From positions 143,547,950-143,611,949 of the forward strand of contig CP136063.1 in NCBI GenBank assembly GCA_032622095.1: a DNA stretch of 64,000 bases. The letters run 5' to 3'. Shown here in pieces: positions 293-51,128 of the stretch. This DNA is from Siphonodentalium dalli. Lineage: Eukaryota; Mollusca; Scaphopoda; Gadilida; Siphonodentaliidae. The notes beneath the pieces are model-generated. The model was not told the DNA's origin, did not search any database, and was given only the letters and a program-made list of their open reading frames with translations. Position 1 is the first letter of the stretch. Every line of letters begins with the position of its first letter. The position numbers and the translations under genes were made by a program.

Positions 293-3200
293 TTAGTGCA
301 AGAAGCTTTTTGCTTTCTTTCGCCATAACAGTGTGAACATCCATAATGACGAAAATGGTGTGATTACAGCCCTGGCTACTAGTTCATTACTAGTGTAACA
401 TTTCAATGATTTTTGCAAGAAACAGCGAGGACCATTCATTTTGGTTGACTTTTTGCAAATTTGTTTTTCCTTAGTTTGTTTGACTGTGGTTTCAGTATTT
501 GAACAGATTGAAACTATAGAGTTAGTGCGCCTTGTTTCTTTCTTGATTACGCAAGGACATACTCTGATAACATGTGTTTCTGGCATGTCAGTACTGGGCA
601 AACTATTGTCAATCTGGTGTGATTCGACAAATTTAGCCGTTTCGGATGATTTAGTATTATTTGTGACGTCACACTGTGGTTGCATTTCGAGCAACTGTGT
701 GTCCCACGATTGTGGTATAGAAATGATGGTTTTGGATTTTGTACAACAGTCGGCATGTTTCTTCGCAAGAAGCCTGTCATACTTGCAAAACGCGACCCCT
801 TTTGATGTTATTAAACCCATTTTGTCATTTAAACAGAACACGTTACTTGTTTGCAATGAAATCTGCGACAGAGAGCGGAGACACTGCGACAGAGAGCGGA
901 GACACTGGTCGGAAATCCCACTTAAATTTGATGTAATTGATTGCGATTTCAGCAGAAATCGTTCGTTAGATTGTTCGTTATTTAATGTGTTCGATTGCGA
1001 TTCCAGCCGTAGAAATCGTTTATGAGATTCATCGCCATTTGATGTGTTCGATTGTGATTTCAGCCGAAATCGTTCACGAGATTCATCTTTGGATGTATTT
1101 CATTTTGATAGCGATTTCAGCAGAATTCGTTCATTAAATTCATCATTACATCTCCAGTTGTTCCATTGAGGAGATGATATGGATTTATCTACAACATGTA
1201 TAGCTCTGGTTCGCGGCGGACTGTCGTTTTCCGATTCAAAAGAATCACACGATAAATCTATCAAATCTTGGTTCGTAATATTGGCATCGCCAAAAAATAC
1301 TTTTCGGTTAAATTTGTGGAATCGAGCATGTTCTATAGCAGCAGCCATAGACGCTGTTGAAGTAGACACTTCTCGAAACTTTAGTTCTTCGACTTGCGGC
1401 AGATCATTATCACCGAACCTATTTCCCATTTAAATAAGGATTTCCTTGAACGTCATATGCGAACTATTTGCTTCGAGCGACTTATGATAGTCGAGGGCGA
1501 ACCCTCCAGACAAGATGACAGTGCAGCTTTACATTCGGCTTTATTCCAACGTTGAAATTCAGCAAATGAACGGAATTCGAAGTCAAGCGGCTGCCAAGTT
1601 ACTTTAACGTCCTTTGAAAATGGTATTTGTGGCGGTATTGAGTTTACTCCATCTATAGGTACATCTTGACCATAATTTTGTCTGGGCCCCGTGTCAGCAG
1701 ACGCAGGCATATTTTGGGATGGTTTTGCATTTACCTTCTCGCGCCCGGATGTTACTGAAATTCCACTGATTGTTGGTTCCAGTAATGAGTTTTGGTCAGA
1801 CCGACGTTGATATGTTATGTCAACATCACCCCTTTCTGGCGATTTGGTTAGATTTTCCGTTGTAACAGTTTGGTAACCACCATAAACTTGTTCGTCAGTT
1901 CCGCTAATTGTTATAGGAACATTTTGCATAGGTGGGTTAGTTGGAATTCTGCCAGATGGATATTGTTGCATTGGAACATTCTGAGTAGTAACTAAACTCA
2001 GATTGTTGGACTGGACCATGATCGGGGGGTTATTTGGTACCTGTATCTGAGGTACTGACGTATTCTCGCCGTATTGTGTTGGCGTAACCTGGGGATTCAC
2101 TCCCAATTGCATAGCTACATTTGATGGTTGCATTGTAGGTTGCATTGGTATTTGCCGAAACGGTTGTTGACTAACAATCGGAGTCTGCCGAGAGTTTGTA
2201 GGCGGTTAATCTGTTATCGGAATATAAGGCACCTTTTGACCAAAAGCATTCGTAAGCATCCAACCAGTTTGCTGTTTGGGGTCATTTCCACACGATGGTG
2301 CGGTGACAAACTGTTGACTCATCGGACCAGGACTGTTCGTTGGAGGATTCATTGTTGTCCCCACGGGGAATTTTTGCCCATTCCACATTGACTGCAACCC
2401 GGAAACTGTCTGGGCAGAAGGGATGGCTCCGGCAATCATGTTTGTCGCTACATACATCATTGCCTGATTTAAATCGCCCCCCAGGCGGATAATTAAATGC
2501 CGTGGACGGGATTTGAACTGCCATAGCTTGATTATACCCTGGTTGTGGAGGCATATTCACTGCAGGGTTAACTTGCTGTGCCAAAGCTTGGTGTATTTCT
2601 CCGGATTGGTTTACCACCGGTTTGCTAACGAGTAGGACCGAAACTGATGACACGGACATTGTAGAAACCCCATTATGAGGGTACATGTTGAGGCACAGAA
2701 CCCGACACAGAATTCCCCAGCCAAACTTGATTCGCCCCTGCATTGCTTTGCATTGCCCCGAGTGGACCCGATAATGGCCCTACTGTCGTGCACACATTTG
2801 GGGTAGGCATACTCCGAATGTTTGTTCCCCATGGCGTTTTATTTGGAACATAGCCACGTAGTAGTGACACGGTGGGCATGGACCAAGATGTCGGCTGTAC
2901 TGCCGGTGTCTGTGCAGGAAGAGATATTTGTTTGAATTTACGATCTCCAAAGCGAGCATAATTTGTAGTAGCTCCTTTATACCGAGTCCCATTCAACTGA
3001 ATGGGGGCAGTAGCCAACTTGGAAATAGGACACGTCCCTGTACTGTAACATGTGTAAGTAGACGTTGGTACTTGTATACCTTTCCAACCCAGTACGTCGC
3101 CCCTGTTGGGATACGTTTCCACCTGTTTGAAACTGGTTTCGCTCTCATAGTGGACCCTGGATTGGTTACCTTATGAACATTGTGAATTCCCTCAATTTGC

Positions 3201-3850
3201 TTTGGTCTAACGACCTCGTGACTTCCCACTGGTTGTGGACTCACTGGAGCGCCATAATTAAGGTAAGGCGAACCAAACATGTGCATGTTATGTGGATTGA
3301 ATACCGGCGGATTCCAATATGGCGGTGGTACATGTGGGCGACACCAAAATTGTGGCACGCACGGTTGCACGTATCTGGGTTGATAAGAGATATATGAACC
3401 ATTTGTTGTCGGATCTGGTGTCAAATTTGTGTCCGATTGTGGAATTGTTACAGTCGTTTCTGGAATTGTGGACATCAGCATATTTCCCATCCCATTTCAC
3501 GATAAGTAACTGGACATATTTTGCACATTGGTGGCCTGCTAAACGTTATTTTCCGTTGACAAAAAGAACGGCGCATTGAAACTGTTATATGATGACCCAC
3601 CACCGTTACTCAATTGCGAATATATTTTTTCGCAATGGTTAGTGTCACTCCCGATAACCCTTGGGTGCATGACCGTTTGATTTGATGGGTAATCATACAT
3701 TATTCCGATTGAGATGTTTGACCCCGTGTGACTAGAAGCTCCATGAGCAAATCCGGACATTAAATCATCCTGTTGGCTAATCAGCGGATTAGCGACGGAG
3801 TGTACCCACGGAGTGTGTGCTTGAGCGAACAATGGCTCAACTCGTTGGCT
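293..3850 (-). pseudogene. Decayed Pro/Asn/Gln-rich ORF, possibly retroelement Gag-like
   Basis: I do not recognise the family. On the minus strand the reading stays open in long blocks (3832-2993, 3122-2673, 2743 to about 2470, 2460-1453, 1429-1100, 856-293) that must be joined by about four frame changes. In-frame stops lie at 3541-3539, 3500-3498 and 2208-2206. No introns are needed, so the original was one long ORF of roughly 1,100 codons. The first two thirds are low-complexity Pro, Asn, Gln, Ser and Met with repeated PP and NP pairs. Near 1620-1480 a short hydrophilic block (FRSFAEFQRWNKAECKAALS) resembles the tryptophan-plus-alanine helices of Ty3-type Gag capsid domains, but this match is weak. 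Downstream is a Ser/Lys/Arg repeat region, then a Cys-bearing tail. No protease, reverse transcriptase or LTR is visible. A host low-complexity gene or a non-LTR ORF1 are alternatives. Confidence 0.45.
874..1140. repeat. Short tandem repeats inside the decayed ORF
   Basis: Four degenerate copies of a roughly 56-bp unit start near 944, 999, 1055 and 1113. Each contains GATTTCAGCMGAAATCGTTC-like sequence. They are preceded at about 874-908 by two copies of an 18-bp unit (gacagagagcggagacac). On the minus strand the units encode NERFLLKSQS-like peptides. The 55-58-bp period is not a multiple of three, so the array probably helped break the frame. Confidence 0.6.
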
Positions 3851-5356
3851 GTTATCGGATTATACGCCGCGTTCACATCTGGACTGATGTTTTGAATCAT
3901 CATGCAAATGACCTACTAGCTTCCCGTTTCAACAAAATAACGATTGGCTGTTTTAGCAGATACGAATAGTTCCCTCGTTGGACTGTTTGGGGAAATTATT
4001 TGTTATCTTCCAAAAATTCGCTCAAATAAAACCTCCCAAAATTTGCTAATTTCGGAACTTCTCGACAAAAGATGCAATACAAGGTGTAAATGCACGAATA
4101 TTGAATAAATGGTGATATTCTATCCGAAAATTGCCTATATAAACGCTATTGGTAGCCTTTATAGACAAATTCACCCACATTTATAAAACCATTTGAAAAA
4201 TTGAAGAAAATTGGAAAATAATCCTACGAAAATTGGCAAAAATAATACTCTGAGACAAAAATAATTCAATTGCACGAAATTAAAAAAAATGAAAAGAAAT
4301 TTCCGTGAAAATGGGCCAAAAAGAACAAATAAGTGCCAATTAATTGAAAAATACGGCGTGCTTGATTGAAATGTCCGCGCAGCAGAATGAAAACAAAACA
4401 GCCTTCATTCCCCACTAAAAAAATAAATAAGCCAATAGCAACTGGCTTTAGAAAAATAAATATTCAACAAAGTGGCAAACACTTGTGTGAAGAAGAAAAA
4501 ATACAAGCCAAAAACAATCAGAAAAATGGCAAAAAAAGTATGACAAAAAGCAAAATTATCTTATAAATAAATAAATAGGAAGAATAGTATGCAGTGCAAA
4601 GTGCGAATAGCAAAAAATACGGTGCGGATTGCAGAAATTACCAAAAGATAATACACGGATTGAAAAGAACAAAATTTAACACGCAACAAAAATATCAAGA
4701 AAAAATGCACAAAAAACGCCGCAAAGATTCGAGTAAGGTCTACGACGCCATTTGTAATATTATTGGGGTACAGTGCATTGTGACTAATTATACATGAAGT
4801 GCAAGTGTTAAATAATACCTTTTAATAATACAGCAATACATCAATACAGCAATACATGTTGACAATAAGAAGATCAGATTCAGAGTGATGGGTTTCCAAC
4901 AGCCTGGTCATCTCGTGAGCTTCCGTCTATCTTCGGTCATCCTCGGTGGTTTTCGGATTTCCCCGTATCTTCGCTCCAATATCGTTTGCCGAGACGTATC
5001 TATTTGTTACAGATTTTACTCTACCAGGCCTAACTATGAAAACACATAAATACAACAGTACGGTCGATTTGCTTAAAATATTTGGCTATATTATCAGAAT
5101 GTAACATTACTCCAGTTGTCATAGAGCCTGAATACTAACTTATCAGTTTCACGCACCCGAACAAGTACATAATATGTCTAGCCGGTAATCATACAACGCG
5201 TCTAACGACAAGGATATGACTGAAATACCTTCTTGTTCACACCAAGTCTTGTTCGGGTTACTTATACATATCAGAAAAATATGGGGTCGGCAGGTATAGG
5301 CTTAAACTTTTATTTGTTAATTAGTCATTTTCTTATGTTGGCCTACATATGTATTC
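3851..5356. other. A-rich intergenic stretch, no gene recognised
   Basis: About 1.5 kb, strongly A-rich on the plus strand between 4000 and 4800. Two lysine- and asparagine-rich ORFs (4366-4566, 4594-4797) are explained by that composition. I see no terminal repeats or splice-framed exon. Confidence 0.5.
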
Positions 5357-12376: not shown

Positions 12377-12383
12377 ATGTGGG

Positions 12384-13646
12384 GTGTTCTGCGGGTGTGG
12401 GTGTCTCCACGCCCAACTGGGTCTGTACATCACTTCTACCAAAGCCAAAAGAAAAAAACATTCAAATGCCAGAAGCCAGTTGAAACTACAGGTATGTCCA
12501 CAAATGATGTGGTGTTGGTTAACATTTTACAAAACACCAAGAAACAACAGAAGACTACAAACAGCACTCATCCTACTACTAATCATAGGAGGGGATATCG
12601 AACAGCACCCCGGGCCGAGGAAAAGGTTGGCAAGTATATATCCATGTGGCCTCTGCCAAGATGATGTAACCTGGACTAAAGGAGGGGTTTGCTGCGATGA
12701 ATGTGAAATGTGGTACCATAGATCCTGCATAGAAATGCCAACAAACGAGTATGAAAGGCTAGCCAACCCGAGCATTGAATGGTACTGCTGTATATGTGAT
12801 AAAGCCAGCATAGACAGCTTCACATACAGAAGTTATGAGCTGGAAACATCAAGCGATTTCTTCAACCTGTCGTCCATAAACCAAACCATAAATAGTCTGA
12901 ATTCATCAGTATTTGAACCACCAAGAGCAAGCAGCCCAGTAGCTGACCCTACTGTAGTAGCCCACCAGAGATCCACAGGTAGCATGCAGGCAGCATCGCC
13001 CGATTCGCCAATAACTGCAGTCAAACAACTCATCAATATTCCTGACAAGACCAATATGCGAATAATGACAGTAAACTACAGAAGTGCACTTCAAAACAAA
13101 GCAGAGCTTGAACTGGCCATCAGCTACATCAAACCCGACATTATCATCGGGACGGAATCATGGTTGAAGGGAGTACGACCGGGAATGCCAAACTCAACCG
13201 ACGCAATCAAATCATCAGAGATATTCCCCCCAAACCTAAATGTATACCGCAATGACAGGACCACCAGAGGGGGAGGCGTCTTCATCTGCACAAATTAATT
13301 GATCCCATCATCCGAAGCCCCAAACCTAGTGACGGATTGCGAAGTGGAGTGGGCTACTGTAAAAACAACAACAAACAAAGACCTATTACTTGCAGCCTTC
13401 TACATGCCACATAGAGAATTGAAACACCTCAACGAACTAAACAAATGCTTTGAAAAACTGGAAAAAAACCACCTGAAAGATCTCATCATTTCCGGAGATT
13501 TCAACTGCTCAGACATAGATTGGGATAAGATGATTGTCAAAGCTGGAGCACCAGACAAGGAAGTTCAACAAAGACTCGTTGATATATGTGCAGAACACGG
13601 GCTAAAACAAATGCAAACATACCAACACGAGAAGAGAACATCCTAG
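12384..13646 (+). pseudogene. LINE ORF2 N-terminus: 2A-like motif, PHD finger, endonuclease
   Basis: The frame runs from ATG 12384 with a single in-frame TAA at 13296-13298 and ends at a frameshift near 13625. Residues 61-70 are hydrophobic (ALILLLIIGG) and lead into DIEQHPGP (71-78), a 2A-like ribosome-skipping motif with His where the canonical motif has Asn. Residues 86-140 form a PHD finger (CGLC, CCDEC, WYHRSC, WYCCIC; C4HC3 pattern). From 224 an exonuclease/endonuclease/phosphatase domain begins: RIMTVNYRS, then PDIIIGTESWL with the catalytic-type Glu at 258, and DRTTRGGGVFI. It continues after the stop with LISGDFNCSDIDW-like sequence. In such LINEs this domain nicks the target DNA. 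The start codon is uncertain. Confidence 0.85.
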
Positions 13647-14211
13647 ACCGTGTCCTGACGAACAACGAATCACTCATAAAAGCAACCAGTACTACACCTG
13701 GGATCTCAGACCATGATATAGTAGTCACAGACTGCATACCAAGACCGCACCATAAGAAGAAAACCCAGCGCAAGACATACGCCTTCAAAAAAGCAAACTG
13801 GATGGAAATAGCAGAAAACATCACCAACATAAGTAAAGAAGTGACCCAGAAATCTGAAGATCCATCGATTACCACTTTTGAAAGATGTGAAGACCGGGAA
13901 AGCATCAGGGCCGGGCGGAATCCCCAACACCGTTCTTAAAAACTGCGCCTATGCGATATCACCAGGACTGACAGCGATATTCAAAAAATCATTAGCAACA
14001 GGACAGCTACCATCTGACTGGGTAAGTGCAAACATCGCACCCGTCTACAAAAAAGGAGACGTCCATCTTGCAGAAAACTACAGACCTGTCTCTCTAACAT
14101 CTGTATGTTGCAAAATCCTGGAACACATTGTATGTCGACACATAATGAACCACCTAGAAAAGCATAACATATTGACGTCACTAAATCATGGATTTAGGAA
14201 AGGACACTCAT
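13587..14211 (+). pseudogene. LINE ORF2: end of endonuclease and start of reverse transcriptase
   Basis: After the frame change near 13625 the frame reads PTREENILDRVLTNN and then SDHDIVVTDC, the C-terminal SDH motif of the endonuclease. A deletion and another frame change follow at about 13870. The RT then begins with KTGKASGPGGIPNTVLKN, SDWVSANIAPVYKKGD and YRPVSLTSVCCKILE, the standard fingers and palm motifs of LINE RTs. It stops at GFRKGHS, where the 14212 transposon is inserted. The same protein line continues at 18049 with VTQLLTT. Confidence 0.85.
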
Positions 14212-14334
14212 CACGGGGTGAAATAAGCGCCTGGTGAATCGGTTCGTCAATGATTTTACGGACGGTTCGTTCCGATCGGGCTCCGGTGCCATTCCGGTTT
14301 TTTTTTAAGTTTTGATTTGTCAACAATTTAAAAC

Positions 14335-14354
14335 ATGTCGGAAAACACAGAAAG
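14335..14354 (+). CDS. Candidate inward first exon at left end of the transposon
   Basis: ATG at 14335 begins MSENTE and meets a perfect GTAAGT donor at 14355. It lies 123 bp from the left terminus. The right end has the mirror arrangement (ATGGAAAACACC... then GTAAGT). The two are recognisably related, so the terminal repeat may once have included promoter, start codon and donor on both sides. No downstream plus-strand partner exon was found. Confidence 0.3.
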
Positions 14355-14867
14355 GTAAGTTAAACAGTTTGTGTTATCGTACCATTTCATTATGCTACGA
14401 TCCAAGGTGACGTCAAGATCACAATAATCAATCCCAGTGACGTTTTACAGCGATGATTGCTTCTTCTTTGTGTGACGTAAATTTGTGTAGAATTGTGTGC
14501 ATTTTGCATTAGAAATAAAACTCCGTAGATCATGCATATTTATAAAGGTGACATCGCTATTTTTGCTAAATGGACTTGGTATAATACCCAATTAAGTTTC
14601 AAAAACACAATTACGTTGTTTCGTTATCAAATTTAGCGATGTAAGTCGGAAACAAAGTCACCATTTCAAGGCTCCGCTTCGTCAACGATTTCTCGGTTCT
14701 GATCCGGTTCGTCACTGTTCGAATCTGGTTCGTCACAGCTCCGATTCGTCGTGATTAGAAACATTACAACACTACTTTTAGCACCAAAATAGGCAATTGC
14801 GCGAAATCTATATAACACCACATTCACATCATGAATACAGGGTATGTCATAGTCGGCTATGTCACGT

Positions 14868-15013
14868 GTATTTGTTACATTTTAAGTTTATATCCAAGAT
14901 AATGAGTTATTAAAGTGGAAGTCTCCGTTCCATTGTTGATATTTGTTACATTTTAAGTTTATATCCAATATAATGAGTTATTAAAGTGGCATTCTCCGTT
15001 CCATTGTTGATAA
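14868..15013. repeat. Tandem duplication of about 73 bp
   Basis: Two copies containing TTTGTTACATTTTAAGTTTA and CTCCGTTCCATTGTTGATA lie head to tail inside the transposon, with only a few differences, so the duplication is recent. Confidence 0.9.
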
Positions 15014-15286
15014 GCATGGTCAAATGTGGGTGAACTATATCAAGATTTTGACATCATATATCATATATGTCATTACAAAGGTTTCTCCGTGCTGTTTATA
15101 CTGTAAACTATACCCACTTGTTGTGGGGTGCAAAATGCACTAACTAGCTATAAATCGGACATATATCTTCACATGTATAGGGGGGACAAATGTAGTGGTA
15201 TCTGAACCGAGAGTGCCGCTTGAATTATTAATATTATTTGGCTGTTTATTTGGCTATGTGATTTTAATGGTAAAGACGCATTTAAA

Positions 15287-17938
15287 TCATAAACTTTGAA
15301 CAAGGTGTTTATGTCCCAAACAAACAACACATTGTGTACGTAACGCCTGCATTTCGGCAATAATTATTTCGGATTCATCGCGCGTTTCCATTTGTGGTTC
15401 AGTTGTTTCGAACAACATTTTTTTTACAGTGCACGTCCGTCATGGGTGTTGCGTTCCTAGGACACTTTACTTGCGGGGAATGCGGACTGCAAGTATAGAC
15501 TGCATGTGGTGGTGTACCGTGAACGTTTTTCACCTTGGATATAGACATGGTCGATTCATCAATCACGTAGTCGTCGGGGGTTCCACCAAGGTCATTGAAT
15601 GATGTGTTGAAGTGAATGGAACGGTATATTTGTTTTAGGCCTACACCAGCATGCTCGTCACGTTGCAATATTGCAATTTCAACTTCCGGATGTTCTATCA
15701 TGTTGTGTCTCACGACCAATCCGACCGACGACATCTTTACTTTGCAATGGTAGCACCTATACTTCTGTAATATAATGAGGAAAAAGACCGTGTTAGTAAA
15801 ATTATATATGCAATGTAATTACATGTATAAATGCAACTATGTCTGTGTTTTCAGTAGAAATATCGTAATATTAGGCCTATATAACATATTGCGACACTAT
15901 TATATATAATGCGGTATCGGATAATGTGGCTTCATATAGCCTATTATATGAATAGAGCATGGCTTGGAGGTGCCTACGCGAATGTAGTGGCCAGTGGGAA
16001 CTACACCTTTCCCACTGGACACTACATTCGCGTAGGCACCGACAATACATGCTCTACTCATTATATTATATCGAACATTCATAGACAAACTGATACTTTA
16101 ATATGGTTACACCATCGGCCATTTCATATATATTTGTATTTATATTTCATTTATTTACATTGCGCTAATCATTATATTATATTGAACATGAATTTACAAA
16201 CTGATGTTCTATAATATTTATATATATATACATCATTTTATTTCTAACCCAAACGCGTAATAGACTAGATATGTTATCCCGCAAACGTGCAAACGTACAG
16301 ACGTATACTACCAGTGGATTGAATTGAATGGTATATATGCATGCCCTGGTCATTGTTCGCTGTGTCAATTAGTGATGCTGGCGTATTTCAGACAATCATG
16401 CTAGCTTGACAGCATATACATATCACAGCTTATAGCGTTCACTCTGAGTTATTGGTATAAACTATCCATTTGACAATAACTATGCACGCGCGATATGACT
16501 AATCTCTCAATCAAAACTATTTGTCGACAACACAGATTATAGTCCCATGCATAGTGGTCTACGTCATAATCCCCTGGCCGTGCTCTACGCTTACGAAAAT
16601 GGCCTACGTCACACCACGTGATATTGGGTACAAGCACTATGCACAATAGAGCCTGCCTCTCGGCCAATCAGCGACGGCGACACAACGGTAAGATATAATA
16701 TTGTGTAATATATGCCTACTCTGATGTGCTACCAACGCCCCTGTAAACAAGCTATTGCAACTGCCAATATATCACATTGTACGTACAATACATCGAATTA
16801 CACCGGAATAGTGTTTTCTTAGTCTTGTAGTCCACCCGCAAGTCAACATTGCGATTCAGTGTCGTTAATGGTGGTGGTTGATTAGACACCTAACACAGCA
16901 CAGGATTAACACGATGACGAACCGGAGCAGTGTGATTTGGAGAGGTACGAACCTCGGGTTCAGTTTGTACGAACCGGAGCTAAAATCGATCTTTGATTTC
17001 ACCCTGTATCGATTACAAATGATATTATTTTTTCGAGATTGAGGTTATACATTAAGGAAGTTAAGTTGTTTCCTTATGAAAATCACTAAACTTATTCAAA
17101 AGCGTGGCATATAATGTTTAAAACACGGCAACAAACCTGTCTCTGCAGAAAAACATGCATCGAATTTGGGTGATCAGTGCATTTTTAGAAGTAATCGGCC
17201 AGGGTTCGCTCTGCCACTTGCCAAATTTGCCAATGGCAAAAATAATTCACAGTTGGCAAAAAATATTTTCATTTGGCAAAAGTTTTGGCAAGTCACTTTT
17301 TAATTCCTTATTAATGAAGTTAAACAATATCGGTCAATCAATACCATTCATTTTCGGAAATTATTACAATGGAATTATATTAGTTGTGTTTTATATGGTT
17401 TCGCAAAAGTTAACACCTCCATTAAGATGCAGTTAATCTGATATCATTAGTATCGACGGGTGGAGGGATTACCTCTATTTAGTGTGATGGTGGTGCTTAC
17501 ATAGCTAATCTTCATATGATGTTCGCTTTTGATCAAGCAACGCTTCTACTATTGTATTGTTCGGTAATCGGTTTATTGTTGTATGATAAACCGTAATAGA
17601 TGAGATCATAATCATTAACTAACTGCTTTTTTATCGATATCAAACAGTGAGTGTCGAAACATAAGACTCAGTCAAGGTTGCAGAAAATTATGCTATTGGG
17701 AATAATATTTGGCAAATTCTAAAAGAATTTGGCAAAAAATATTTTCATTTGGCAAATTATTTGGCAAATGTAAATTTCGTTCCAGCGCGGACCCTGTAAT
17801 CGGCAAAGCTTCTTACATTAAAGTGGTATATAAACGTCAACAGATCTATTCTAGCAAAGATTGCGAAGGGCATCCATACATAAATGTTATTTATTTATTC
17901 AAACTTACCATTTTACCGAGACCTGTGGTGTTTTCCAT
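15287..17938 (-). CDS. Transposon-borne two-exon gene with C2H2-like zinc finger
   Basis: Gene model on the minus strand. Exon 1, 17938-17909, encodes MENTTGLGKM and ends at a GTAAGT donor. Exon 2 begins at 15764 after ATATTACAG; both junctions are phase 0. Exon 2 continues KYRCYHCKVKMSSVGLVVRH, a CxxC-x12-H-x4-H finger-like motif, then EVEIAILQRDE, KQIYRSIHFNTSF and DDYVIDEST. The frame is broken once at an A8 run (about 15419-15426). With one base less it continues MLFETTEPQ, an acidic/Ile helix and CVVCLGHKH, to a TGA at 15289-15287. AATAAA lies at about 15250-15245. Total about 170 residues. Function unknown; the finger suggests nucleic-acid binding, for instance the N-terminal part of a transposase or a repressor. 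The intron contains the hAT MITE and the right GGTTCGTC cluster. An alternative donor (AAG|GTGAAA) lies at 15533. Confidence 0.55.
15938..16071. repeat. Long near-perfect hairpin
   Basis: Arms 15969-15999 and 16010-16040 pair over 31 bp with one mismatch (GGTGCCTACGCGAATGTAGT...), around a 10-base loop. Weaker pairing extends to about 15938 and 16071. It sits in the intron of the transposon gene. It could be a tiny MITE, a recombination scar or a microRNA-like precursor; sequence alone does not decide. Confidence 0.8.
17200..17796. mobile_element. hAT MITE nested in the transposon
   Basis: Ends CAGGGTTCGCTCTG and, reversed, CAGGGTCCGCGCTG are flanked by a perfect 8-bp repeat, TAATCGGC, at 17192-17199 and 17797-17804. 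Clusters of TTTGGCAAA and TTGGCAAAAAATATTTTCAT mark both subterminal regions. It is 597 bp with no transposase. The 8-bp duplication and CAGGG ends are typical of hAT. Confidence 0.9.
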
Positions 17939-18048
17939 TGTGCTGGCCGGTCGGATCGTGACGAACGTCAACCCAAAATCGGGGTCGAACCGTCCGTAAA
18001 TTCATTGACGAACCGATTCAACAGGCGCTTATTTCACCCCATGCTCAT

Positions 18049-19250
18049 GCGTCACACAGCTATTGACCACCAACATAGATTTCCTAACAACATTTGACGT
18101 GAAAATTCAAACTGATGCCGCAATATTAGACTTCTCAAAAGCATTTGACACCGTGCCACACAGAAAACTGCTCGCCAAAGTAAGCAACTACGATATCAAA
18201 GGAAAGTTCCACACCTGGCTTGAAAATTTCCTGACGCAGAGACAAATGAGAGTCGTCGTTGAAGGGCAAGCTTCGTCCAGCGTTTCTGTCGACTCTGGCG
18301 TGCCACAGGGAGCGTGCTTGGACCTCTGCTTTTCCTGTGCCACATCAATGACCTACCAGATTGTGTCTCCTCGCAGGCGAGGTTATTCGCAGACGACTGT
18401 TTATTATATCGCCAAATAAAAACATACAACGACCATGTCACTCTACAGAAAGACCTAGAGAAGCTTGAGGTATGGGCAGAAAAGTGGGGCATGCGATTCA
18501 ACGCTAAGAAGTGATATATCATGTCCACGAGCAAAACAACATCTTTCACATACCAGCTAAACAACTGCCTACTAGAAGAAGTAGATGAAACCCCATACCT
18601 GGGGGTGACACTTTCCAAGGACATGAAATGGTCATCTCACATCACCAAAATCACACAGAAGGCGAATAGTACGCTAGGCTTCATTAGAAGAAACCTAAAG
18701 AAGGCTCCAGCCAATAGCAAGCTGATCGCATATGAAACCTTAGTGCGACCAGAGATGGAATATGCATCAGTTGTCTGGGACCCCCACCTGATAGGAGACA
18801 TTTACAAACTAGAGAGGATACAGAAGAGAGCATCGAGATTCCTAACAGGGGACTATACATCACAAGAGGCAGGAACAATTACCAACATGCTGCGTGAATT
18901 ACAGCTACAAACACTAGAAGGCCGAAGGTATGACCACCGACTCCAGTTGTTTTGGCAAGGTAGTGGACGGGCTGGTCCCGGCTATCGGCACCAAAGACCT
19001 GTTGAGACCAAAACAAAAAGTGGGTCGAAAAATCAAAGCTCGGAAGTTCGAGGGGTACGTATCAACGAACTTTGTTTCTACGCAGGAGTGTAACAACTCA
19101 AAACCCTAATCGACGCGCAGACTACAGAATTCAAAAACTCATTCTTCCCTAAAACAATCAAGGACTGGAATACCCTGGAAGAAGACAGCATGCGATCCAT
19201 CCAAATGACAATGGACGGAGAACCAGCTGAAAACAACAAAACGTCCTAAT
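18049..19250 (+). pseudogene. LINE ORF2: reverse transcriptase core and C-terminus
   Basis: This is the continuation of the split LINE. It reads VTQLLTT, then ILDFSKAFDTVPHRKLLAKV and DSGVPQG, and shifts frame near 18315 to LGPLLFLCHINDLP and RLFADDCLLYR, where the FADD box carries the two catalytic Asp residues. A TGA interrupts at 18512-18514 (NAKK*YIM, normally Cys). The thumb region follows (DETPYLGVTLSKDMKWSSHI, ERIQKRASRFLTGDY). A last frameshift near 18955 leads to VDGLVPAIGTKDLL and the C-terminal FFPKTIKDWNTLEED motif, ending near 19248. Because of the breaks it is not functional. Confidence 0.9.
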
Positions 19251-46196: not shown

Positions 46197-47642
46197 GTCC
46201 AGGAGATATTGGTCGACCTCTGCACCCCCCCCCAGGACTTAACTTCACCCCACTAATTTTCTTTCTTAAGGTCTCCTCTAATTTTTTTCACTTGTTAACA
46301 AGAAAAAAAAGTGGCCGCAGAGACTCCAGACAAGATGGCGTCCATCATGGCGGCCATTTTTTTTAAATGCACCAGGTCTCTGATCGCCATTATAGTAAAG
46401 ATAATAGCACATGCGGTTTTGTTTTCCGCTCGATGCGTTATGCTAATATACAACCCTTACAAATTAGCCAAAAATCCGACACCAGAATCCAATATGGCGG
46501 CCAAGATGGCCGCCGAAATGTGAAAATATGCTATTTTTCTGACATGTTACCACCTTTCGTTTGTCTCTGTGGGAAAATGTTAGAATTTTTGCTTCATGTT
46601 ATACATTTATCATATAGAGGAGTCATTGGCGAACACATGGGGACCATAATATGCATTCATTGCGGGATATTGTTGTCCGATATCACGTTTTCCCAAATGC
46701 CGGCATCATAGGTCGAAGCCGAATCTCCGTTAATAACGGGATGTTATGTTTCGAATCAATGAATGTTATTGCTATTATAACAACACCCATGCATATATAT
46801 TCTCAGGAGATACTCGAGCTAGGATTCCTCTTATACCTGAGTTGAGGAATATTTACCCAAATCCAAGATGGCGGCCAACATGGCCACCAGAAATAAAAAA
46901 TCGCAGAAAATCGCTGATTTTAACATCAGTGAGCATTATTGTCATGACAACTCCACACCTGCTTACTATTGTAAGTTGGGAACACTTAGGCGAAGAACTT
47001 TCCTTGTACCATTTCCAAATAAAAGTCCCCCAAATCCAAAATGGCGCCCACAATGGCGGACAGATTTTGAATAATCACCGAAATTCCCTCATATTCACAT
47101 CATTGGGCATTATTGTCGAGACAACTCCACCCATGCTTACAATTGAGTTGGAAATACAGAGGTGAAGTAATTACATTACATCTCATGCAAGAAATTGTTT
47201 TCCAAATCGAAGATGGCGGCCAAAATGGCGACCGAAATTTGAAAACAAATCTACATTCCTTTACTTTCTTAGGATGGGCGTTATTGTTTCGCGATTTCTA
47301 TCCACCATTACATGTTGATATGGAATAGTGACATGAAGTATTCATTAGAGTTTGGCAATTGATACTCACAGCCAAGATCGCTGGTAAATTGGCGGCTAGA
47401 AATTGAAAAGAAATCGATATTTTCACATATTAATTTCAACCTTTTGTCATAATATCGGTATGTATGGACGAAATTGTACATAAACCATCTACTAGTTCAA
47501 CTTAAAGGTATCAAAACGCATAACATAGCTCGTATCCTTCTGGAAAGATGAAACACCACAATTAATATCGCGATGTGGCATTTCCAGTCTCCACTTAGCG
47601 CCGATAATGGCCGTAAGCGTAGGTGCGCCGAATAGTTATATC
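46197..47642 (+). repeat. Left arm with ATGGCGGCC blocks
   Basis: CAAGATGGCG-type double blocks lie near 46332, 46491, 46866, 47039, 47212 and 47374. Spacing is about 160-190 bp, most often 173. The internal repeat AATTCCCTCATATTCACATC / ATTATTGTCATGACAACTCC recurs once per unit. Overlapping ORFs (46311-46523, 46746-47165 and others) reflect the repeat. Confidence 0.85.
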
Positions 47643-48059
47643 AGAACAATTACCTGATAACAGATTCTGATTTGCCACGTCACGTCCATAATTATCTGGA
47701 CCAGCTTCCATTTCTTTGTCTGATAAATCTAGGTCGCTCACACCGACAAAGTATTCACCACTTCCTGGGAGTAGGGTCCCTCTAATCATAACGTTTCAAA
47801 CAATTCATTTTCCGGTGTCTAGCTTACAGAAGGTCATCTCTATGTATGTGTCTCATACCCCATGGGATAACGACATGCACACCTGGCGAACCAGTTAGCT
47901 AGTCACTTCTCAATAGATAGTTCGTCAACTCACACTCAGCGAACGCATTGGCATATGTGGACAACTTCGACAGTGTTTCGAAGGTTGCTAGTTGTCTCAT
48001 TCCCTTGGACAGATGTCTATCAACTAAGGAGAAGACCCTAGTGTACAGACTACCCACAC

Positions 48060-48287
48060 TTATTTACCATTATCCGAAGCAAACTGTGTGACGCCCCGCA
48101 GTTGTCTCGTCGAATATCTCCCAGCAGAGAAGAACAATGCTCGCGGTGCTAGTTTGTGGACATGCGCCATGATAGTGGGAATGAAATGGGCCACTGTATA
48201 CACCACCCCTACACCTGGTGCATGTTTAAGATATCGAATGTCATGCGTGTCGGTTTTGTTTAGCCTTTCTGATTCAACTACGTACAC
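48060..48287 (-). pseudogene. Palindrome-interior ORF remnant, left
   Basis: The 75-codon minus frame includes FIPTIMAHVHKLAPRALFFS. Its mirror in the other arm (49005-49253, plus) reads FISTIMIHTHKLAPCVLLSS in the same phase. The shared peptide over about 30 residues suggests a once-coding ancestor. No family is recognised. Confidence 0.3.
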
Positions 48288-48579
48288 TTTTGTCTGGATA
48301 ATAATATGCTAGCCTCCCTCAAAACAGTCGGATGGACTAAAGGATAATGTCTTTATAGCATGGATGTATGCGTGTTTTGTTATCCTCTCTCGGGGTTAGT
48401 GTCAGTATGTGGGCGGTATTATTCAAGAGAATGTCAGGAACTGTGGTGCATTTATTTCACTATGTGTTTAAAGAACAATTTACAGTCTCGATGGCGATGG
48501 CTGTGGCCGTTGGGGAACGCGACCTTTATGATCATATAGCTTTATATATATAACTTTAGAATATAGTAGTTAATGTCTC

Positions 48580-48738
48580 ATGCAGGAAAATGGTCGCATT
48601 GGTGATGTTATCAAGAAATCACTTGGTGTACCAACGTGTGTTGAACTGAATGCAAGAGCTCATCAACGTAACAATCCTCTGGATGTTCTTTGCGTTGAAC
48701 ATTTCACCCTTTTGTTGATGGCATTTGTACTTTCTTGA
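48580..48738 (+). CDS. Small ORF at the palindrome axis, unknown
   Basis: 52 codons from ATG 48580 (MQENGRIGDVIKKSLGVPTC ... LNARAHQRNNPLDVL), ending TGA at 48736-48738. The composition is protein-like and it sits at the axis between the two arms. It may be an exon of a decayed internal gene. No domain is recognised. Confidence 0.25.
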   Translation: MQENGRIGDVIKKSLGVPTCVELNARAHQRNNPLDVLCVEHFTLLLMAFVLS

Positions 48739-48928
48739 ACCATACCACCCAGCGTGATTATGACATATCAACCAACTATCAAATGTGTCGCCTTTAAGAC
48801 TACACCACAGTCTTTGTGGGGCTTATACAGCAGTAGCCAATGGCATACCCCTGGTCCAGTTGTTTAAGAACGGCTTCCAAACGGATGGGAACATACAATC
48901 TTAGCATACAAGGAAAGCAAAGCCACAC

Positions 48929-49253
48929 ATGAGATCCTGTCTGAATCTAAAACATAACAAAATAAGGGGCGGTACAGTCATGGTCCAATTTCATTTCCAC
49001 TATCATGATACATACCCACAAACTAGCACCGTGTGTATTGTTATCATCTGCTTGGATCTGTTCGGTGAGACGATTGCTGGACGCCAACAAGCTTGTTCTT
49101 ATGATCATGTTCAAGGAGTTTGGGTATATTATGCATTATGGTCTTCTACGCCTTAGCAGAATTGCATCCGGCAAATGTCGGGCTTTCAACATTCGAAGCC
49201 ATATACAGAAGTTGTCCGGGTACGTCAGTGCATTAGATGAGTATGTGAATTGA
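48929..49253 (+). pseudogene. Palindrome-interior ORF remnant, right
   Basis: Mirror of the left remnant. The frame 49005-49253 carries TIMIHTHKLAPCVLLSSAW and then IQKLSGYVSALDEYVN, the latter matching SKLSTYANAFAECE in the left arm (about 47930-47980, minus). Decayed. Confidence 0.3.
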
Positions 49254-49697
49254 TGAACCATATATTGAGAAGTGGCTGTTTGGGAAGATCACCAGGCGTA
49301 CACGTTGTTATCCCCATTAGGTCACCAAAGCTGACAATACGCATATAGATAGGTCCTTATGAAAGCTAGTATACGCATCGACCGAATACCTTTATAGTGT
49401 ATCGCACAAGATGACGCATATACCCCATATGTAGCATCTGAATTATACCATACGCTATACCACAAATGAAGCTCGCTAAGAATTCCAAGCTTTCGAAACC
49501 AACACGTGAGCTGGACCCCGGCATATGTATTGTTTGAAACATTGCGATTAGTGGCACACTCCTACAAAGAAGAGTAGTGATCTGTTGTTGTGAGTGAGAT
49601 AGATTAATATGACGAAGAGACGGAAACGAGTCTAGATAATGCAGAATGTGGCAATTCAGAATAAGCTCAGGTACTGTTGTTTTGATTCTTGGAAGTC

Positions 49698-51128
49698 ATA
49701 ATATGACTATTCGGCGCACTTATATACGGTTACGGCCAGTATGAGCCCTTAGTGGAGAATGGATTTTGAAATGCCACATTGCGATTGTGGGTTTTCATCC
49801 TTCCAAAAGGCTACGACTTACATTGGAACTAATATATGGCTTATATTATGTACCGTTTTGTTTATACAAATCAATATTATGACAAAAAGTTGAAATTAGT
49901 ATGTGATAATATCGGATTCTTTTCAATTTCTGCCCGCCAGTTTGGCCGCCCTATTGACTGTGAGTATCACTTGCCAAACCCTAATGAATAATTCATACAT
50001 ATCAACATGTAATGGTGGTAGAAAACGCGAAACAATAACGCCCATCCTAAGAAAGTAAAGGAATGTAGGCGTGTTTTCAAATTTCGGTCGCCATTTTGGC
50101 CGCCATCTTCGATTTGGAAAACAATTTCTTGCATGAGATGTAATGTAATTACTTCACCTCGGTATTTCCAACTCAACTGTACGCATGGATGGAGTTGTCT
50201 CGACAATAATGCCCAATGATGTGAATATGAGGGAATTTCGGTAATTTTTCAAAATCTGTCCGCCATTGTGGGCGCCATTTTGGGTTTGGGGGACTTTTAT
50301 TTGGATATGGTACAAGGAAAGTTCTTCGCCTAAGTGTTCCCAACTTACAATAGTAAGCAGGTGTGGAGTTGTCATGACAATAATGCTCACTGATGTTAAA
50401 ATCAGCGATTTTCTGCGATTTTTTATTTCTGGTGGCCATTTTGGCCGCCATCTTGGATTTGGGTAAATATTCCTCAACTCAGGTATAAGAGGAATCCTAG
50501 CTCGAGTATCTCCTGCAAATATATATGCATGGGTGTTGTTATAATAGCAATAAGATTCTTTGATTCGAAACATAACATCCCGTTATTAACGGAGATTCGG
50601 CTTTGACCTATGATACCGGCATTTGGGAAAACGTGATATCGGACAACAATATCCCGCAATGAATGCATATTATGGTCCCCATGTATTCGCCAATGACTCC
50701 TCTATATGATAAATGTATAACATGACGCAAACATTCTAACATTTTCCCACAGAGACAAACGAAAGGTGGTAACATGTCAGAAAAATAGCATATTTTCACA
50801 TTTCGGCGGCCATTTTGGCCGCCATATTGGATTCTGGTGTCGGATTTTTGGCTAATTTGTAAGGGTTGTATATTAGCATAACGAATCGAGCGGAAAACAA
50901 GACCGCATTTGCTATCATCTTTACTATAATGGCGATCAAAGAGACCTGGTGCATTTAAAAAAAATGGCCGCCATGATGGACGCCATCTTGTCTGGAGTCT
51001 CTGCGGCCACTTTTTTTTCTTGTTAACAAGTGAAAAAAATTAGAGGAGACCTTAAGGAAGAAAATTAGTGGGGTGAAGTTAAGTCCTGGGGGGGGGGGGG
51101 TGCAGAGGTCGACCAATATCTCCTGGAC
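49698..51128 (-). repeat. Right arm with ATGGCGGCC blocks
   Basis: Mirror of 46197-47642, with blocks near 49940, 50090, 50262, 50436, 50805 and 50965. A G13 tract at about 51090 faces a C10 tract at about 46226. Confidence 0.85.

Follow-up and report, generated by a model that had tools for sequence, protein, structure and literature searches.

Why should a transposon with sharply bounded ends carry a small zinc-finger gene and no recognisable transposase? The question is raised by an element at positions 14212-18043 of a 64,000-nucleotide stretch of the Siphonodentalium dalli genome (contig CP136063.1, positions 143,547,950 to 143,611,949, forward strand; assembly GCA_032622095.1), hereafter the window. 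The original prediction, made from the window sequence alone, described a complete two-exon gene whose product might be the DNA-binding part of a lost transposase, a self-repressor, or a captured host protein. Comparison with other copies and relatives in the genome (2.227 Gb, nine contigs) points to a different whole, to which we assign a probability of about 0.87: the window element is non-autonomous, having arisen by internal deletion from a cut-and-paste transposon with two genes, the relatives of which encode, as gene 1, a P-type transposase containing a YqaJ nuclease domain. The window copy itself is thus ordinary, a product of deletion; what is unusual is the transposon lineage from which it derives.

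Ends, insertion site and internal deletion

The predicted terminal repeats are borne out as terminal inverted repeats (TIRs) of 58 nt with 95% complementarity, located at 14212-14269 (plus strand, starting CACGGGGTGAAATAAGCGCC) and 17986-18043 (minus strand, starting CATGGGGTGAAATAAGCGCC). They are flanked by a 5-bp target site duplication (TSD), CTCAT, at 14207-14211 and 18044-18048, and the insertion lies in a CR1-like long interspersed nuclear element (LINE) whose reverse transcriptase (RT) frame is uninterrupted across the site and resumes across the insertion (GHS on one side, CVTQ on the other). The TIR 20-mer, at up to three mismatches, is found only at these two sites within the window (0.00 expected), and the exact 20-mer occurs 11 times genome-wide, including four copies with both ends, all four bearing 5-bp TSDs (CTCAT in the window; AACAA, ATACA and ACTAA in the others). 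Genome-wide matches with three mismatches were excluded from the family because a backward-read control gave nearly as many (26 and 35 versus 28 and 37). The further exact ends inspected were three, two on C9 having been left out: L006 is a right end of the window family, L007 shares 47 nt, and L001 just about 20.

The internal deletion is disclosed by a copy on another contig (C8:68617390-68644629, L026), which extends over 27 kb with nested elements and is 94.5% identical to window 15332-16190. After the common EMQAL, the C8 copy reads on from LPQVIRELKREN to FDGKKIAMGFGQQLGEINMFGHE, its own frame being broken in places; the window sequence jumps at about 15332-15341, an interval within which the exact junction base is not fixed, the alignment to the C8 copy stopping at 15332. 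Window 15045-15265 aligns to the family copy L010 and not to the C8 copy, and a family copy on C6 is 97.6% identical over window 14212-15265, indicating that 15045-15265 belongs to the element. Because the C8 copy keeps the gene past the break and the C6 copy keeps window 15045-15265, the window and C8 copies must have arisen from a longer element by different deletions. The gene predicted as complete is therefore incomplete, its coding region holding an internal deletion beyond which the longer C8 copy carries on.

Two observations on other copies deserve mention. In L009 (the copy at C3:242587826), where gene 1 is lost, positions 1600-3800 contain repeated frames about 273 bp apart, a tandem array as judged by eye. 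The C8 copy comprises an inverted nested stretch (L026 6928-8613 and L027 3-1193), virus-like in character, with a frame containing GPTSSGKT and ILDDLM, which we presume to be akin to a packaging ATPase. In addition, 14 pairs with a similar end, CACGGAGTGAAAGAA(C/G)CGCC, were dropped as candidate family members, lying inside a longer inverted repeat and giving no zinc-finger match at E≤1; these stretches (L012-L025, 4.5-4.7 kb), the inverted ends of which continue outward as CGTGGTTTCTGA, constitute a separate repeat family.

Architecture of gene 1 in fuller relatives

Searched against the genome, the C8 protein gives at least 119 matches distributed over all nine contigs, the window and C8 copies included, a lower bound obtained by scoring 115 of 888 candidates and comprising matches not all confirmed as transposons. 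A complete relative, at C6:210899398-210909265, measures 9,868 bp and displays TIRs of 61 bp (90%), the first 16 nt of which are identical, and the TSD AATCA. Its gene 1 encodes 1,426 residues up to the end of exon 3, including (i) a C2H2 finger from residue 5, (ii) the proposed Asp-1 at 292, (iii) a YqaJ domain at approximately 495-640, (iv) the proposed Asp-2 at 839, (v) a DxxH motif at 1219, and (vi) a candidate catalytic glutamate at 1386.

The YqaJ assignment (PF09588) exceeds the Pfam cut-off in three of the four family proteins in which this region is present (E=2.3e-10, 7.3e-7 and 1.1e-8), the fourth, L050, falling below it at 0.049. The complete relative contains SPDG and FEIKC, which we take to be the acidic/Lys catalytic motif of YqaJ. 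After YqaJ, and past an intron, follows a core with SSDGQ, DCHH and SENFF, whereas in a C2 copy a single unspliced frame of 1004 residues has FDGKKI first, YqaJ second and the RNase H half last. Exon 3 terminates at a splice donor, as seen in two families. A further relative, at C7:133037304-133042296, has TIRs of about 544 nt and the TSD CAGTA. All six element pairs examined, four of the window family and two relatives (CAGTA, AATCA), display 5-bp TSDs, and 11 of 12 ends begin with CAC, the exception being the right end of the window element (CAT). As a separate observation, a MULE transposase domain (L036 100-693; Pfam 8.5e-13) lies about 700 bp upstream of one gene-1 relative and perhaps belongs to an adjacent element.

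In these relatives the finger exon forms the N-terminus and is followed by YqaJ and then by the P-type core, which bears out the suggestion that the window gene is the DNA-binding part of a lost transposase. The alternative that it is a host gene captured by the transposon could appeal to the frequency of C2H2 fingers in hosts and to the weak match of the window finger to zf-C2H2_11 (E=0.0032, below the Pfam cut-off). It is nevertheless unsupported, since the 119 matches are dispersed over nine contigs and exon 1 ends at nearly the same distance from the element end in the window (135 nt, 17909 to 18043) and in the 44%-identical complete relative (134 nt); moreover, copies that are dispersed and divergent share the N-terminus, the splice acceptor and the downstream domains, and capture appears exceedingly improbable.

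The P-type RNase H core

The start of exon 3, taken alone, matches PF21787, the N-terminal part of the P-type RNase H domain, over profile positions 66-131 in five of five families (E=1e-5, the sole value above the cut-off, 0.0017, 0.0065, 0.042 and 0.18). A hand-made consensus reaches 4.5e-10, and 9.9e-11 when the FDGKKI region is placed in front, the start of the match then moving to profile position 40. PF21787 is matched 97 times genome-wide, and six P elements of this genome with full-length PF21787 (L070-L075; L070 and L071 near-identical) served as the reference for profile alignment with hhalign. The exon-3 half aligns to P columns 83-146 (P=2.2e-6, probability 89%), and the first half, PGIL...CKISFDGKKI, aligns to P columns 7-49 over PGF...IDGMSI (P=0.0028), collinear with the second half. 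None of 560 column shuffles attained the score of the first half (0/60 and 0/500; the largest of the 500 was 23.3, versus 24.5). With the intervening stretch removed, YqaJ included, one alignment spans P columns 9-146, with a score of 49.6 versus 40.2 and E=1.8e-7.

These alignments place Asp-2 clearly in SSDGQ, and point, with weaker support, to Asp-1 in FDGKKI; the third acidic residue would be the glutamate of SENFF. Because FDGKKI aligns on Asp-1 and SSDGQ on Asp-2, YqaJ appears to lie within, and to interrupt, the catalytic fold.

A number of observations weigh against the main reading. Regarding the link between the window and the fuller relatives, near-identity (93-98%) is limited to the C8 copy and the window, all remaining matches being at most 59% identical; nothing was seen of the window family past the FDGKKI region, the C8 copy itself being deleted there. 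A search of the complete relative for the last exon of gene 1 (exon 4) did not locate it, and the exon 3 matches in the genome, at least 71, carry no assignment to families. Regarding the profile evidence, two unrelated Pfam models outscore PF21787 in the fourth family (L066, 0.042), and longer pieces match it more weakly (L054, 1.9e-4, below the cut-off; L059, 0.045; one of the six sequences of alignment A2 at E≤0.1). The consensus of the FDGKKI region alone matched no Pfam model, and natural exon-3 pieces gained just 0.4-1.2 bits in Pfam score when the first half was added (reversed controls, -0.1 and -0.3). The hhalign probability of the first half on its own is low (10.9%), and in the spliced-out alignment both halves are present in just two of ten rows. 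Sequence searches of the PDB gave nothing relevant, with no match to the core, and the region after Asp-2 has no relevant Pfam match.

Some of the same evidence bears on an alternative, that of a plain member of the P superfamily with an extra domain, which is favoured by the PF21787 match in all five families and by the alignment to P elements from this genome. We consider it unlikely, while retaining it as a serious contender, for the TSD is 5 bp rather than 8 bp and the N-terminus is a C2H2 finger rather than THAP, a domain without a match in the Pfam scans. Besides the lack of a Pfam match after Asp-2, the two proposed aspartates are 547 residues apart in the complete relative, as against 73 in Drosophila P, for which PMC7776569 gives D230 and D303 as the first two catalytic acids; and P-type elements with an uninterrupted PF21787 (profile 2-137) exist separately in this genome. 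A further view, to which we would give even odds, is that of an undescribed lineage, arguably a superfamily of its own, in which a YqaJ/lambda-exonuclease-type nuclease would lie inside a P-clan RNase H fold, between Asp-1 and Asp-2, yielding one polypeptide with two nuclease active sites, accompanied by a convergent C2H2-array partner, 5-bp TSDs and CAC ends.

Gene 1 of the window copy

On the minus strand, the predicted gene structure is present in all its parts: an ATG at 17938, the GTAAGT donor at 17908, the acceptor ATTACAG before 15764 in phase 0, a C-x2-C-x12-H-x4-H finger, the TGA at 15289-15287 and the AATAAA signal at 15250-15245. Exon 1 as originally drawn occupies 17909-17938. The conserved start, common to the complete relative, is probably the ATG at 17911-17909, which abuts the donor; the ATG at 17938 is in frame and found in family copies L003, L005 and L006, but the sequence upstream of the conserved start in the complete relative contains an in-frame TGA and lacks an ATG. 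Intron 1 (15765-17908, GT-AG) is enlarged by nested elements, among them a hAT-like non-autonomous element of 597 bp at 17200-17796, bounded by the TSD TAATCGGC at 17192-17199 and 17797-17804. Also within the intron, a palindrome at 15948-16061 with 53-nt arms (89%) looks like a small mobile repeat, related pieces of which are found in family copies L009, L011 and L026.

Only the 5' part of exon 2 is retained (15332-15764), comprising the C2H2 finger, the four ligands of which (C, C, H, H) are the same in all six aligned sequences, and the following linker. An AG acceptor is found at the equivalent place in all four relatives or copies inspected (L030, L031, L032 and L026), so that, for the 5' part of gene 1, the check put forward with the original prediction, namely whether other copies conserve the frame and the splice sites, is passed. 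The frame break predicted in an A8 run, near 15420, is likewise confirmed, relatives reading through at this point (e.g. VHCRKTLF in L031); the C8 copy has another run length there and is also out of frame. The 3' fragment at 15287-15340, reading RTQCVVCLGHKHLVQSL to the stop, is situated at and beyond the deletion junction, and nothing in the complete relative convincingly corresponds to it; approximately the last 15 codons of the window gene, the stop at 15287 included, lie beyond the junction. When six-frame stretches of at least 28 residues from the window element (without the nested insert and three end pieces) were compared with Pfam, the finger alone was recovered and no transposase remnant. 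Rfam and tRNA searches gave nothing, and no relatives were found in phages, viral contigs or prokaryote genomes.

Could the truncated gene nevertheless be functional, its short C2H2 protein occupying transposase sites and repressing transposition? Among P elements, small non-autonomous copies can encode such a repressor, the example in PMC7776569 being the 207-residue KP protein, and the window copy retains both first exons, the splice sites, the finger and the poly(A) signal. Against a KP-like role, the A8 shift leaves about 131 residues, and four of the five substitutions that separate the window from the C8 copy in exon 2 before the A run (counted by eye) change the amino acid, as unconstrained decay would give. 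Furthermore, among the other three two-ended copies, exon 2 is lost from L009 and reduced to about 20 nt in L010 and L011. A repressor function therefore seems improbable.

Second gene and subterminal repeats

The relatives possess a second, convergent gene, a vestige of which, absent from the original prediction, is probably kept in the window. In the complete relative, on the strand opposite to gene 1, an exon consisting of ATGACTGAAAG followed by GTAAGT starts 144 nt from the right end and joins, with the phase kept, a frame in which six C2H2 fingers were counted by eye; a C2H2 frame is also found on the opposite strand of the C7 element. In the window, ATGTCGGAAAACACAGAAAG followed by GTAAGT (14335-14354, plus strand) starts 124 nt from the left end, a location that, compared with the 144 nt of the similar exon in the relative, suggests that the second gene probably began here, its body being gone and not found in the window copy.

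This convergent two-gene layout, together with 5-bp TSDs and ends starting with CAC, recalls RAG-like transposons, for which the same three features are described in PMC7204232, and raises the possibility of a RAG/Transib-like transposon. We regard it as very improbable: Pfam scans of the core listed no RAG1 model, the P-type model being matched instead; the second gene is, by eye, a C2H2 array and not RAG2-like; and the protostome RAG-like consensus given in the same source, CACTWMC, is matched by none of the ends CACGGGG, CACACCC and CACTGGG.

Internal to the TIRs, four GACGAACCGGA-like sites (at most one mismatch) form a left subterminal array at 14673-14750 (minus strand, 462-539 nt from the end), and two such sites lie on the right at 16916-16978 (plus strand), in mirror orientation and at a similar distance from the end once the nested element is discounted. 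At up to two mismatches, 8 of the 12 matches in the window fall within the element; the motif is not enriched in the window overall, since 10 of 100 shuffles reach 12 (7.65 expected).

A model for the transposon

The elements retained by the window copy, namely the TIRs, the subterminal arrays, both first exons and the finger-coding part of gene 1, can be accommodated in a model in which a complete gene 1 product would comprise, in order, the C2H2 finger, the first half of the RNase H domain with Asp-1, YqaJ, the second half with Asp-2, the DxxH motif and the SENFF glutamate. Most probably, the finger would bind the subterminal arrays, cutting and joining with a 5-bp stagger would fall to the RNase H core, and YqaJ would process the DNA ends or the flanking donor DNA. 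The window copy would have moved in trans.

Other features of the window

The CR1-like LINE that hosts the insertion spans 12378-19090, its RT domain being split by the element; its N-terminal segment CGLCQDDVTWTKGGVCCDECEMWYHRSC presumably corresponds to a PHD finger. Farther away, a long inverted repeat at 46225-51096 comprises arms of 924 nt (97%), in addition to arms of 157 and 151 nt; it contains frames in which NPRWRPKWPP is abundant, around GGCGGCCA motifs. On the minus strand, a chain of long frames rich in Q, N and P at 296-3859 possibly represents exons of a host gene.

Comparison with known systems

hAT elements generate TSDs of 5-8 bp, so that a length of 5 bp alone does not exclude them; Pfam scans of the core gave no hAT transposase domain model. 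IS481EU was set aside, its described TSDs being of about 4, 15 or 25 bp. The P/THAP9 elements resemble the present transposon in (i) the RNase H half around Asp-2, matched by PF21787, (ii) the alignment of PGF...IDE/IDG with PGI...FDGKKI, and (iii) the occurrence of subterminal repeats and internal-deletion derivatives; beyond the TSD length and the N-terminal domain already discussed, the differences reside in the YqaJ domain proposed between Asp-1 and Asp-2 and in the second convergent gene, and no GTP-binding insertion was recognised between Asp-2 and the glutamate. RAG-like, ProtoRAG and Transib elements share the TSD length, the CAC ends and the convergent layout, and differ from the present elements, which have a P-type rather than RAG1-type core match and a C2H2 array in place of a RAG2-like gene. 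KolobokP, as described in PMC9587614, also combines a transposase and a second nuclease in one transposon, but there the nuclease is a separate His-Me finger gene, the TSD is the 4-bp TTAA, and long terminal direct repeats are present.

Insertion domains are named for P, Hermes, Tn5 and RAG1 in a P-element review. Among the papers listed for YqaJ, with Repbase and most subscription journals outside the scope, no YqaJ-transposase fusion was encountered; those listed that mention YqaJ are PMC4482050, PMC9179366, PMC12915292, PMC10225492, PMC3493329 and PMC3620924. An entire second nuclease placed between the two aspartates would, if true, represent a different way of building a transposase and suggest that the element supplies end processing of its own. 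It was the ends and first exons of a gutted copy that led to the fuller elements. Another known system is ISL2EU, of the PHIS superfamily, which also encodes a YqaJ nuclease; according to PMC4482050, however, this is a separate open reading frame, of a function there called unknown, alongside a PHIS transposase with THAP and helix-turn-helix domains and an AT TSD, in contrast to the 5-bp TSD and the YqaJ domain within the transposase described here. As ISL2EU has YqaJ in a separate protein, the fused version would offer a direct route to ask what role YqaJ plays in transposition.

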